Assembly (NCBI GenBank): GCA_945862385.1
Contig: CAMAXV010000005.1
Location: 1-64,000 of the forward strand
DNA length: 64,000 nt
Direction of reading: 5' to 3'
DNA from: Chitinophaga pinensis
Lineage (GTDB): Bacteria; Bacteroidota; Bacteroidia; Chitinophagales; Chitinophagaceae
Positions within the stretch are counted from its first letter, which is position 1. Each line of letters begins with the position of its first letter. Below are positions 50,449 to 54,326 of the stretch, one piece after another. The translations under genes and the position numbers were made by a program. The notes below the pieces were generated by a model. The model did not search any database. It saw only the letters and a program-made list of their open reading frames with translations, and had not been told where the DNA came from.

Positions 50449-50657
50449 TGAATAATCATGAAATTGGTAAAATAATTCAGGAAAGGAGAGACTTTTTAAA
50501 TTTAACCCAAAAAGATATCGCTGAAATTTCAGGAATCACTTTTAAGTCCATTTCTGAAATTGAGTTAGGGATAAGAAACCCGTCTGTAAATACATTAAAT
50601 AAAATTTTGGAGGTGTTGGGTTTAGAATTATCAGTTCAGATTAAATCAATGTATTAA
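50448..50657 (+). CDS. hipB: HipB-like HTH antitoxin/regulator
   Basis: IGKIIQERRDFLNLTQKDIAEISGITFKSISEIELGIRNPSVNTLNKILEVLGLEL. Confidence 0.85.
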   Translation: MNNHEIGKIIQERRDFLNLTQKDIAEISGITFKSISEIELGIRNPSVNTLNKILEVLGLELSVQIKSMY

Positions 50658-50974
50658 TGAAAGCTGGAGTTTACAACAATGGTATATTCGCCGGAGTATT
50701 GGAAAAGCGACCTGATGGAACCTATTCATTTGAGTATGACATTGTGTATCTGCAAAATGATAAAAATCCATCCATCAGTTTAACCTTGCCCAAGCAGTTT
50801 GGCAAGCATGAATCTGAAAAGTTATTCGCATTTTTCTTTGGGTTATTGTCTGAAGGCGTAAATAAGAATATTCAATGCAGGTTGTTGAAAATCGATGAGC
50901 ATGATTATTTTGGCAGATTAATGCTAACGGCACAAGAGGATAATATAGGATCAATTGCAGTAAAACCTTTCTAG
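50657..50974 (+). CDS. hipS: HipS-like protein (HipA N-terminal subdomain as a separate protein)
   Basis: GVYNNGIFAGVLEKRPDGTYSFEYD...SISLTLPKQ...FAFFFGLLSEG. Confidence 0.82.
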   Translation: MKAGVYNNGIFAGVLEKRPDGTYSFEYDIVYLQNDKNPSISLTLPKQFGKHESEKLFAFFFGLLSEGVNKNIQCRLLKIDEHDYFGRLMLTAQEDNIGSIAVKPF

Positions 50975-51952
50975 ATGAATTGTCTTGGCTGTTACAAAAA
51001 AATAGAGAAAACTGAATATTGCCTTTCATGCAGAAAGAAACTATTTGATGGCAAACGTGTTTCACCTGTACTTGAATTTGATAAGCCGAAGGCAGATAAT
51101 ATAAGTATGTACAATGAGTACTCTAAAAGCATGTCTATTTCTGGCGTGCAATTAAAATATTCTTTCAGATTAGTTGGGAATAAACTTGAATTGTGTGAGA
51201 AAAATGGACAATATATCCTTAAGCCAATACCAACGGCAGACCATTTAGAACTCATGGAAGATGCTCCGGAGAATGAGCATTTGACAATGCAAATTGCATC
51301 ACAAATTTTTAATATTAAGACTGCAAACAACGCATTGATTTATTTCAAAGACGGAACACCAGCCTACATCACCAAAAGGTTTGATGTTAAAAAAGATGGG
51401 ACCAAGTTCTTACAAGAAGATTTTGCGCAAATAACCAATAGAACGCAGGAAACCCATGGTGAATCATATAAATATGAGGGTAGCTATCTTGAAATAGGAG
51501 CGCTGATAAAAAAATATGTACCAGCATCCATCATAGCCATTGAAAACTTTTTTAAGATCATTTTATTCAATTATGTTTTTTCAAATGGCGACGCGCACTT
51601 AAAAAATTTCTCCTTGATAAGGAATGAATTCCTTGAAATGGAATTGTCGCCTTCCTATGATCTAATGAGTACGATAATTCATACACCGGGTGAACGGGAT
51701 ACAGCATTGGATTTATACGATTTAGACCATGAATCCGAGTATTATGCTGCTTATGGACATTATGGAAGAAAGAATTTTATTGAATTTGCAAAGAGACTTG
51801 GGATCGTTGAAGTAAGATATCTGAGAATAATCAATGAGTTTATTGAAAAAGAGTCCGTAGTGTATGATTTTATTCAAAAAAGCACCTTATCCAAAAAGGC
51901 AGCAGATGCTTTTACCACAAACCTTCAATCAAGGATAAAAAGATTGACCTAA
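50975..51952 (+). CDS. hipT: HipT-like serine/threonine kinase toxin (HipA C-terminal domain)
   Basis: SISGVQLKYS loop; catalytic NGDAHLKNFSL; SPSYDLMST; N-terminal CLGCYKK...CLSCRKK zinc-ribbon-like motif. Confidence 0.85.
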   Translation: MNCLGCYKKIEKTEYCLSCRKKLFDGKRVSPVLEFDKPKADNISMYNEYSKSMSISGVQLKYSFRLVGNKLELCEKNGQYILKPIPTADHLELMEDAPENEHLTMQIASQIFNIKTANNALIYFKDGTPAYITKRFDVKKDGTKFLQEDFAQITNRTQETHGESYKYEGSYLEIGALIKKYVPASIIAIENFFKIILFNYVFSNGDAHLKNFSLIRNEFLEMELSPSYDLMSTIIHTPGERDTALDLYDLDHESEYYAAYGHYGRKNFIEFAKRLGIVEVRYLRIINEFIEKESVVYDFIQKSTLSKKAADAFTTNLQSRIKRLT

Positions 51953-52210: not shown

Positions 52211-52273
52211 TGTACTGACTAAATTTGGCGTAAAATTGTCAATGTGCTGACTAAATTCGGCCTAAAATTGTCA
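52211..52273. repeat. Tandem imperfect direct repeat, 31-bp unit, period 32
   Basis: tgtactgactaaatttggcgtaaaattgtca / tgtgctgactaaattcggcctaaaattgtca. Confidence 0.88.
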
Positions 52274-52318
52274 CTATATTATCAGAATCATATAATTTTA
52301 CCCTCAAATGCAAATGGA

Positions 52319-53446
52319 ATGGTAATCAAAAGGGTTATCGAAGAACACATTTTCGATTTGTTGGGAAGCAACAAGGTCATCCTCATCTTGGGAACAAGAA
52401 GGGTAGGAAAGACATTTTTGATCAACAAGATCAGGGAACGCTATCAGGGGAAGGTCTTGATGTTAAATGCTGAAGATTTTGATGTACAGGAAATACTCAG
52501 GAAAAGATCAGTTGCCAATTATCAACGTATTATAGGTGATGCAGGTTTGTTGATCATTGATGAAGCGCAGGCAATTCCTGAAATAGGCATGGTGTTGAAG
52601 TTGATGATCGATAGCCAGACACAGTTGACTATTCTTGCAACAGGTTCATCTTCGTTAGACTTGGTCAATACTACCGGTGAGCCTCTCACGGGCAGACAAT
52701 ATCCATTTATTCTCTACCCTATTGCTCAGATGGAATTAGCGCAGGACCCAATTTCCATTAGGGCAGATTTGGAGGAGAGATTGATACTGGGTAGTTATCC
52801 GGAAGTGTTTCAACTACAGTCCGTAAAGCAAAAGGAGTCTTATCTGAAAGAGTTGGCCAAATCATATTTGCTCAAAGATATTCTGGCATATGCAGATATT
52901 AGGCATTCTGCCAAGTTGGTAGACCTGTTGCGCTTAATTGCTTTGCAGGTGGGTTCTGAAGTATCCTATAACGAGTTGTCGATTAAACTAGGCATCAACA
53001 AAATTACAGTTGAGCATTATCTGGATTTATTGCAGCAGGTTTTTGTGCTTTTCAGGTTGCCGTCATACAGTACCAACCAAAGAAAGGAAATAGCCAAAAG
53101 TTCAAAATGGTATTTTTATGACAATGGCATTCGAAATGCGGTGATCCAGGATTTCAGGCCTGCAACAATGCGAAGTGATATGGGCATGTTATGGGAAAAT
53201 TATATCATTTCAGAAAGGTTTAAACGAAATGCATATTTGGGCGAAGACAGGCAGCTATATTTTTGGCGCAATTATAATCAACAGGAAGTAGATTTGGTCG
53301 AGTCTTTTGCCGGACAGTTGTCTGCCGTAGAAATAAAATACGGTGAACGCAGTCGGAAGCAAAAGCCTAAGGCTTTTGACCAGGCATATCCTGATGCAAG
53401 TTTCAGTATTGTTGACCGCGATAATTACCTGGATTTTATTTGTTGA
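52319..53446 (+). CDS. AAA-type ATPase with DUF4143 C-terminal domain
   Basis: LILGTRRVGKTFLINKI; LLIIDEAQAIPEIG; ATGSSSLDL; WENYIISERFKR...FWRNYNQQEVDLVE. Confidence 0.88.
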   Translation: MVIKRVIEEHIFDLLGSNKVILILGTRRVGKTFLINKIRERYQGKVLMLNAEDFDVQEILRKRSVANYQRIIGDAGLLIIDEAQAIPEIGMVLKLMIDSQTQLTILATGSSSLDLVNTTGEPLTGRQYPFILYPIAQMELAQDPISIRADLEERLILGSYPEVFQLQSVKQKESYLKELAKSYLLKDILAYADIRHSAKLVDLLRLIALQVGSEVSYNELSIKLGINKITVEHYLDLLQQVFVLFRLPSYSTNQRKEIAKSSKWYFYDNGIRNAVIQDFRPATMRSDMGMLWENYIISERFKRNAYLGEDRQLYFWRNYNQQEVDLVESFAGQLSAVEIKYGERSRKQKPKAFDQAYPDASFSIVDRDNYLDFIC

Positions 53447-53512
53447 TTGCGGCTCATTCAATCTGTTGAGAAACTTTTAAGAATTACAGGGAATAAACAA
53501 ACTATACAAAAT

Positions 53513-53559
53513 AAAAAAGCCCATAAAAAATTGATAAACAATTCATTATGAGCTTTTTA
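53513..53559 (-). terminator. Rho-independent terminator for the minus-strand RNA
   Basis: On the minus strand: AAAAAGCTCATAATGAATTGTTTATCAATTTTTTATGGGCTTTTTT. Confidence 0.7.
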
Positions 53560-53563
53560 GAGC

Positions 53564-53726
53564 TGTAGGGGGAGGGATCGAACCTCCACGAGGCAGTTAG
53601 CTATAGCGCAAAGTTTCAGTGGTCGACCCTGGTCGCCTCTTGCGAGACGGCTCTACACTACGTTTATCCTGTTATCCTCACCCCCGAGACAAGAGGGCAT
53701 GTCTGCCAAAATTTCATCACCCCACA
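53564..53726 (-). ncRNA. tRNA-like RNA with Leu-type (class II) arms and an 88-nt expansion in the variable-arm position
   Basis: Minus strand: 7-bp acceptor TGTGGGG/CCCTACA; D-arm ATG-AAATTTTGGCAGA-CAT; anticodon-like CCCTC-TTGTCTC-GGGGG; T-arm GGAGG-TTCGATC-CCTCC; terminator downstream. Confidence 0.7.
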
Positions 53727-53743
53727 GTGGTAAAGAACTGATG

Positions 53744-53751
53744 CAAATTTA
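53744..53751 (-). promoter_or_regulatory. Bacteroidota-type -7 element (TAnnTTTG) for the tRNA-like RNA
   Basis: TAAATTTG on the minus strand, 18 nt upstream of the acceptor stem. Confidence 0.45.
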
Positions 53752-53768
53752 ATATAAATCAGTTTTTC

Positions 53769-53814
53769 TTGATAATATTTCAAGAAATATTTTTTATTTA
53801 TTGATAATATTCAA
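53769..53814. promoter_or_regulatory. Two ttgataatatt(t)caa sites upstream of the Lrp-family gene
   Basis: ttgataatatttcaa (53769-53783) and ttgataatattcaa (53801-53814), about three helical turns apart. Confidence 0.5.
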
Positions 53815-53858: not shown

Positions 53859-54326
53859 ATGGCGTCAAAATTAAATCTTGACAAACTCGACCTGCAAATC
53901 ATTCAGATCATGATGGAAGATGCCGGCATTTCCTATGCAGATCTGGGCAAGCAGCTTTTTGTTTCCGGCGGAACGATACACGTACGCATAAAAAAACTGC
54001 AGGAGATTGGAATTGTCAAAGGTACGAAACTGAACGTTGACCTCAAACTTTTAGGTTATGATATTACCGCATTTGTAGGCATCTACCTGGAAAAAAGCTC
54101 ACTCTACGATCAGGTGGCTGAAGACCTGAAGCAGATTCCGGAAATCGTTCGGTTGAACTATACAACAGGTAACTACAGCATGTTCCTCGAAGTGGTGGCC
54201 AAAGACATCAATCAGCTTAAATTTGTGCTTCACGACCAGTTACAGAAAATTAAAGGTATAGAACGCACGGAAACCCTGATCTCCCTGGAGGAAAGCTTCA
54301 ACCGCAATGTTCTGGTGGCGAGTTGA
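53859..54326 (+). CDS. Lrp/AsnC family transcriptional regulator
   Basis: LDKLDLQIIQIMMEDAGISYADLGKQLFVSGGTIHVRIKKLQEIGIVKG plus RAM-like C-terminal domain. Confidence 0.9.
   Translation: MASKLNLDKLDLQIIQIMMEDAGISYADLGKQLFVSGGTIHVRIKKLQEIGIVKGTKLNVDLKLLGYDITAFVGIYLEKSSLYDQVAEDLKQIPEIVRLNYTTGNYSMFLEVVAKDINQLKFVLHDQLQKIKGIERTETLISLEESFNRNVLVAS

Follow-up and report, generated by a model that had tools for sequence, protein, structure and literature searches.

A class II tRNA family with an expanded variable arm in Bacteroidia and phages, and its probable role as a carrier RNA for asparagine synthesis

Introduction

What is an RNA that has the body of a tRNA-Leu, the triplet GUC in the anticodon position and some 90 surplus nucleotides where the variable arm should be? 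Such an RNA is encoded on the minus strand of a 64,000-nt stretch of a Chitinophaga pinensis contig (CAMAXV010000005.1), hereafter the window. An earlier note on this DNA had offered an interrupted tRNA, a tRNA-mimic regulatory RNA and a new structured RNA family as possible answers. Here the structure, distribution, identity nucleotides, genomic associations and phage copies of the RNA are described, and its possible functions are weighed.

Results

Structure of the window RNA

The window RNA is a real feature. It has the architecture of a class II tRNA, in which a body of the Leu type bears an enormously enlarged variable arm. Its parts are as follows (all on the minus strand):

53562..53727: whole tRNA-like RNA, from C-1 (53727) through tRNA positions 1-73 with expanded variable arm to an encoded C74 (53562)
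53726-53563: tRNA-like body, followed by the encoded C74 at 53562
53720..53726: acceptor 5' strand UGUGGGG (U1-G7), pairing with 53564-53570
53699..53717: D arm, 3-bp stem, Leu-type loop with G18 and G19; two of the three D-stem pairs covary in the 126-copy alignment
53680..53698: anticodon arm, 6 bp, loop UUGUCUC (GUC 53690-53688, U37 53687, C38 53686)
53588..53679: variable region, 92 nt, with covariation in every helix
53679-53676/53593-53590: variable-arm stem Va; a four-nucleotide bulge lies between Va and Vb
53671-53669/53596-53594: variable-arm stem Vb
53668-53663 and 53600-53597: internal loop GAUAAA/CUAA, strongly conserved within the family
53662-53651/53613-53601: variable-arm stem Vc, leading to a three-way junction
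53649-53634 and 53631-53617: hairpins H1 and H2 of the three-way junction, distal end of the variable arm
53571..53587: T arm GGAGG-UUCGAUC-CCUCC, seen in sequence and covariation
53562..53570: acceptor 3' strand CCCUACA with G73 (53563) and encoded C74 (53562), seen in the sequence
53508..53558: A/T-rich hairpin plus T run, seen in the sequence and not called by a G+C-based scan; probably a terminator

All five arms of a class II cloverleaf are present, with a 7/5 acceptor branch, U8, G18G19 and a T loop of the form UUCRANY. The 7-bp acceptor stem (TGTGGGG/CCCTACA), the 3-bp D stem with its Leu-type loop, the complete T arm and the CGTCTC-GCAA-GAGGCG hairpin described in the earlier note are all found in the sequence, and its remark that GUC is out of place in tRNA-Leu or tRNA-Ser is correct. 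The 5-bp anticodon stem with loop TTGTCTC is likewise present, and a further pair (30:48 of the RNA) extends it to six. The expansion reported there as an 88-nt insert (53591-53678) is real, but its extent is corrected to 92 nt (53679-53588), and what had been described as loose local helices is instead one continuous structured arm with a terminal three-way junction. The terminator reported downstream is probably the A/T-rich hairpin and T run listed above, and homologues of the RNA also have similar hairpins downstream.

The Rfam and ARAGORN searches proposed in the earlier note were run. In the window, ARAGORN called neither a tRNA nor a tmRNA, and the window RNA stayed below the gathering score of every Rfam family, the tRNA and tmRNA models included; at relaxed thresholds across the locus, other families matched at chance level only, with no intron family. 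A tmRNA identity was rejected, as neither the ARAGORN tmRNA search nor the Rfam tmRNA model matches. Among the phage contigs scanned, one short phage form (L280) was called tRNA-Asp. No description of the RNA family was found in the literature searched, the coverage of which was partial.

Distribution and covariation

Among 249 genomes of the same GTDB family as the source, approximately 174 contain the RNA as a strong match. Over all copies, phage forms included, the RNA has a total length of ~93-208 nt and a variable region of ~20 to 132 nt. The best 30 family homologues, with 87% mean column identity, gave 84 double-changed cells compared with 22.6 in shuffled and 4-31 in slid controls, and 17 pairs were double-changed, with covariation in the variable arm. 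For 126 class-wide and viral copies, in an alignment fitted to the covariance model's own structure, 887 double-changed cells were counted against 228 (shuffled) and 116-173 (slid); 96.1% of pair cells were standard, and 44 of 51 pairs had changed on both sides. Homologue collection and a covariation test of the insert had been suggested earlier as a check, and the helices of the insert do covary. It is conservation and covariation that set the RNA apart from chance; the folding energy of the window RNA is unremarkable in single-sequence folding (z -1.06) and, not being significant, was left out of the evidence.

The covariance model traced the RNA to further families of the same order and, more widely, across the class, with members mostly scoring above 74 bits and ordinary tRNA-Leu genes at most 57 bits. 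Chitinophaga, Pedobacter, Algoriphagus, Dyadobacter, Spirosoma and Saprospiraceae are among the matches listed, from a pattern scan that fixed the loop GTCTCG. These results support a new, strongly covarying RNA family, uncatalogued before and spread over a large bacterial class and phages. The suggestion of a new structured RNA family is thus borne out: homologues exist and covary, and a sizeable family went unreported by tRNA, tmRNA and Rfam tools for the window copy.

Tandem copies, as many as four, occur in some genomes; at loci L361, L362, L357 and L081, three or four lie within ~0.4 to 1 kb. The D loop of L082 and L083 (genomes G446 and G599) contains an additional insertion of about 20-25 nt that resembles a hairpin. 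At L049, two stretches near a full copy (977-1044 and 1295-1362) match part of the model, confined to its variable arm. One pattern match (L095) is in a metagenome-assembled genome labelled Ignavibacteriales, which, if correctly labelled, falls outside the class.

Identity nucleotides

Nucleotides were counted in 111 cellular copies taken from the covariance model and not picked by loop pattern; the model was itself trained on copies with that loop, and strongly deviating copies would be under-represented in these counts. G34 occurs in 110 of the 111, and U35, C36, C38, G73, U1-A72, G2-C71 and C74 each occur in all 111. Among viral copies, 14 of 15 have U1-A72. L342 (genome G566), with the loop CTCTCTC and C34 for G34, is the sole such cellular copy above 74 bits.

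Aspartate identity in bacteria rests on the set G73, G10, G34, U35, C36 and C38 (PMC9976931). Judged by sequence, the RNA carries this set except for G10, position 10 being unconserved (A in 82, G in 15 and U in 14 of 111 copies). The combination of GUC, C38 and G73 as an aspartate identity set had been overlooked in the earlier note, as had the links to GatCAB and to an AsnC-type regulator. In bacterial tRNA-Asp, G1-C72 is strictly conserved (PMC9976931); the RNA has U1-A72 in all cellular copies. The lack of a conserved G10 and the replacement of G1-C72 by U1-A72 may weaken aspartylation. U1-A72 is the main determinant for the GatCAB amidotransferase (PMC4206432, PMC4027206), and a small D loop is the second (PMC4027206). 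Only the former is found in the RNA, the D loop of which is of the Leu type and mostly 11-14 nt long.

Position 37 is U in 93, G in 9, C in 8 and A in 1 of the cellular copies (a purine in 10 of 111), and at least 120 viral stretches have U37, compared with 3 without it. Position 33 is U in 97, G in 11 and C in 3. The combination of U33 with a purine at 37 that marks a decoding tRNA is not the rule here, and because position 37 is mostly a pyrimidine, the RNA is apparently not decoding.

The ordinary tRNA-Asp of the source genome has G1-C72 and the loop CTGTCAC. Among the 30 source-genome tRNA genes read, only tRNA-Gln starts with U1, and C74 is encoded in all 30. No tRNA-Asn is among these 30, read from 33 found (the remaining three are 84 nt long), and its absence is probably an assembly gap.

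Co-occurrence with GatCAB and asparagine synthesis genes

GatCAB was scored by its GatB subunit. In 80 family genomes, GatB is present in 20 of 20 RNA-positive and 2 of 60 RNA-negative genomes (Fisher 6.5e-17, with kinship ignored; within-genus cases are the only phylogenetic control on these statistics). The source genome encodes a GatB of 486 aa. In the class sample, all 48 RNA-positive genomes have GatB, as do 227 of 296 genomes overall; many RNA-negative genomes of the class also carry it, so the RNA cannot be predicted from GatCAB alone.

The asparagine synthetase AsnA was found in 4 of the 80 family genomes, all RNA-negative, and three of them are within-genus losers of both the RNA and GatB. 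In genera g12 and g24, the genomes that lack the RNA and GatB carry AsnA and their RNA- and GatB-positive congeners do not; paired loss of the RNA and GatB was also seen in genus g95. AsnA is thus confined to genomes without the RNA and GatB, as predicted, although some RNA-negative genomes have no identified replacement. The AsnB-family model is broad: it (TIGR01536) does not separate true AsnB from paralogues in exopolysaccharide clusters. Nine genomes with an E. coli-type AsnB signature, the type being checked on two, are all RNA-negative. Six of 21 RNA-positive genomes lack both AsnA and any AsnB-family protein over the cut-off. Several other RNA-positive genomes carry broad AsnB-family paralogues over it, so a route through the RNA would not always be the sole one. 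Two RNA-negative, GatB-carrying family genomes also lack AsnA and AsnB-family proteins, and the RNA was therefore possibly missed there.

All but one of the 79 genomes tested, among them RNA-positive ones, have AsnRS (78 of 79), and GatCAB is therefore not needed just to form Asn-tRNA(Asn). Bacteroidetes have been listed among the groups with tRNA-dependent asparagine synthesis, and why many Bacteroidota keep GatCAB despite having AsnRS is a question raised in the same work (PMC4206432). GatCAB may also serve glutamine. The AspRS of the source genome is of the ordinary bacterial type. A motif search of ~2.0 of the 3.1 Mb of this genome did not find GlnRS or tRNA-Asn; GluRS was likewise missed, which makes these two absences uninformative.

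The AsnC-type regulator and the upstream region

Three features lie upstream of the RNA:

53859..54326, plus strand: Lrp/AsnC-family regulator gene, divergent from the RNA
53744..53751, minus strand: TAAATTTG (TAnnTTTG), Bacteroidota -7 promoter element
53765..53787, no strand assigned: perfect inverted repeat TTTCTTGA-N7-TCAAGAAA, candidate operator

The solved structure nearest to the window regulator is E. coli AsnC (2cg4, 5e-31), followed by a next best match at 6e-21. Of 201 loci, 131 have an Lrp/AsnC-family gene that is transcribed away from the RNA, at a median distance of 156 bp, and many of the other loci are short-flanked. In the window, the region between the two genes is 131 bp long. 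In the RNA-negative genomes examined, no relative of this gene was found beside AsnA or AsnB. E. coli AsnC is an activator of asnA whose effect is lost in the presence of asparagine (PMC4482635).

The -7 element had been spotted in the earlier note, and it lies at 53751-53744 as TAAATTTG. Of 125 homologous upstream regions, 56 contain TAnnTTTG (4.3 in shuffles) and 16 contain TTTG-N6-CAAA (0.2 in shuffles).

Phage copies

At least 120 viral stretches in IMG/VR carry the loop pattern, and all 80 viral loci searched match the covariance model, two of them being cut by the end of the stretch. Several viral copies lie inside large tRNA arrays in which ordinary tRNA-Asp and tRNA-Asn also occur; examples are the arrays of L257 (a tmRNA and 25 tRNA calls) and L273 (24 tRNAs). 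L226 carries terminase and portal genes and L212 a portal gene, so at least these contigs are phages. In the shortest phage copies, of 93 nt, the variable region is down to 20 nt, and the nucleotides of the acceptor and anticodon persist. Plasmids gave no BLASTN match to the window copy, nor did named phage records to two viral copies; the phage evidence therefore rests on the IMG/VR contigs.

Discussion

Proposed function and alternatives

As the best explanation of these results, we propose that the RNA is a non-decoding tRNA that would be charged with aspartate by AspRS and amidated to asparagine by GatCAB for asparagine supply, a reading to which we assign a probability of roughly two in three. 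It draws on the computed structure and covariation, identity invariance, GatB co-occurrence, AsnA exclusion in the family sample, AsnC-type linkage and phage presence. The fuller account, with slightly better than even odds, is that of a dedicated non-decoding tRNA, distinct from tRNA-Asn and tRNA-Asp, that serves AspRS and GatCAB as the site of asparagine formation, is controlled by an AsnC-type regulator that would here govern the RNA in place of an asparagine synthetase gene, and is carried by phages as a non-coding metabolic gene.

In this pathway, a paralogous class II tRNA would have left decoding. The RNA would be transcribed from its own promoter, probably under the control of the divergent AsnC-type regulator, and would be processed like a tRNA, with C74 encoded and CA added. 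An ordinary bacterial AspRS could then charge it with aspartate through G34, U35, C36, C38 and G73, followed by recognition of U1-A72 by GatCAB and amidation of the bound aspartate to asparagine. Finally, the asparagine would be released or passed on, and used by AsnRS. Asn-RNA(GUC) may be prevented from inserting asparagine at Asp codons by the pyrimidine at position 37, a relaxed position 33 and the giant variable arm.

The main alternative, which we consider unlikely, is that the RNA acts as a scaffold or regulator that holds AspRS and GatCAB in a complex or titrates AspRS, with ordinary tRNA-Asn as the real substrate. The same identity elements and GatB co-occurrence would be expected, a large structured arm with a conserved internal loop would suit such a role, and a complex held together by tRNA-Asn, the transamidosome, is known (PMC9976931). 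However, AsnRS makes an indirect route to Asn-tRNA(Asn) unnecessary for decoding, G73, the encoded C74 and U1-A72 have been retained, as one would expect of a 3' end in use, and phage copies drop nearly the whole arm while keeping the acceptor and anticodon nucleotides. The tRNA-mimic regulatory RNA of the earlier note is retained as a minor rival.

It is improbable that the RNA is an ordinary extra tRNA-Asp that decodes GAC/GAU and is also supplied by phages to boost translation. The GUC anticodon, G73 and the location in phage tRNA arrays would agree with this, whereas the rarity of a purine at position 37 in cellular and viral copies would not; a normal tRNA-Asp (loop CTGTCAC) is present in the same genome, phage arrays also hold tRNA-Asp, and the co-occurrence with GatB would be left unexplained. 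Still less probable is a relative of seryl or leucyl class II tRNAs, such as an allo-tRNA, charged by SerRS or LeuRS irrespective of its anticodon. The Leu-type D loop, long arm and G73 point that way, and SerRS uses G73 and the long arm (PMC7609411), yet an irrelevant anticodon would drift, and GUC with C38 is (nearly) invariant. The ordinary tRNA-Leu genes of these genomes have A73, and bacterial serine identity sets list C72 and C11-G24 (PMC9976931), where the RNA has A72 and mostly U11-A24. An interrupted tRNA with a spliced-out insert is the least probable reading, and very unlikely. The ~90 extra nucleotides within a tRNA body would suit it, but they prolong a class II variable arm, are conserved and covary, and match no Rfam intron family; their length grades from 132 nt down to ~20 nt in phage copies, a behavior not expected of an intron.

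Comparison with known systems

Set against the tRNA-Asn of tRNA-dependent asparagine synthesis (AspRS and GatCAB; Deinococcus, Bdellovibrio), the RNA shares U1-A72, G73, a genomic GatB with AsnRS alongside, and the lack of an asparagine synthetase in some genomes. It differs in its Leu-type class II body, giant variable arm and GUC in place of GUU, with which an ordinary AspRS could charge it. With bacterial tRNA-Asp it has G34, U35, C36, C38, G73, G2-C71 and a closely similar anticodon loop (CUGUCUC/UUGUCUC against CUGUCAC) in common; it departs from it in a mostly pyrimidine position 37, in its class II form with a 20-132-nt variable region, in U1-A72 for G1-C72, in the lack of a conserved G10, and in a 3-bp D stem with a long loop. 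Bacterial tRNA-Leu, whose ordinary genes are the weak matches of the covariance model, has the same D arm and loop pattern and the same 2 nt between variable arm and T stem, whereas the RNA has G73 instead of A73, a GUC anticodon and the expanded arm. The allo-tRNA and selC-like long-arm tRNAs (PMC7609411) likewise combine a long arm with a mismatch of anticodon and body, with GUC among the reported anticodons; the RNA has a 7/5 acceptor branch, fixed GUC and C38, a much larger arm, a home in another phylum and ties to GatB and an AsnC-type gene. As in E. coli asnC-asnA, the AsnC-type regulator lies beside and divergent from its partner, but the partner here is an RNA gene and not an asparagine synthetase gene.

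If the proposed function is correct, much of a bacterial class synthesizes one of the protein amino acids on a carrier RNA built for the purpose. The carrier would combine parts of different tRNAs, with GUC for loading by AspRS, U1-A72 for GatCAB and anticodon-loop features that act against translation. This would help to explain the retention of GatCAB in many Bacteroidota with AsnRS (PMC4206432). It would also mean that a non-coding gene adjoining an AsnC-type regulator is an amino-acid biosynthesis gene, and that phages carry such an RNA gene in their tRNA arrays.

Neighboring genes

In the window, an AAA_14/DUF4143 ATPase gene (52244-53446, plus strand) is convergent with the RNA. Further along, adjacent Couple_hipA (HipA N-terminal) and HipA_C kinase-like genes (50657-51952, plus strand) make up a split HipA.
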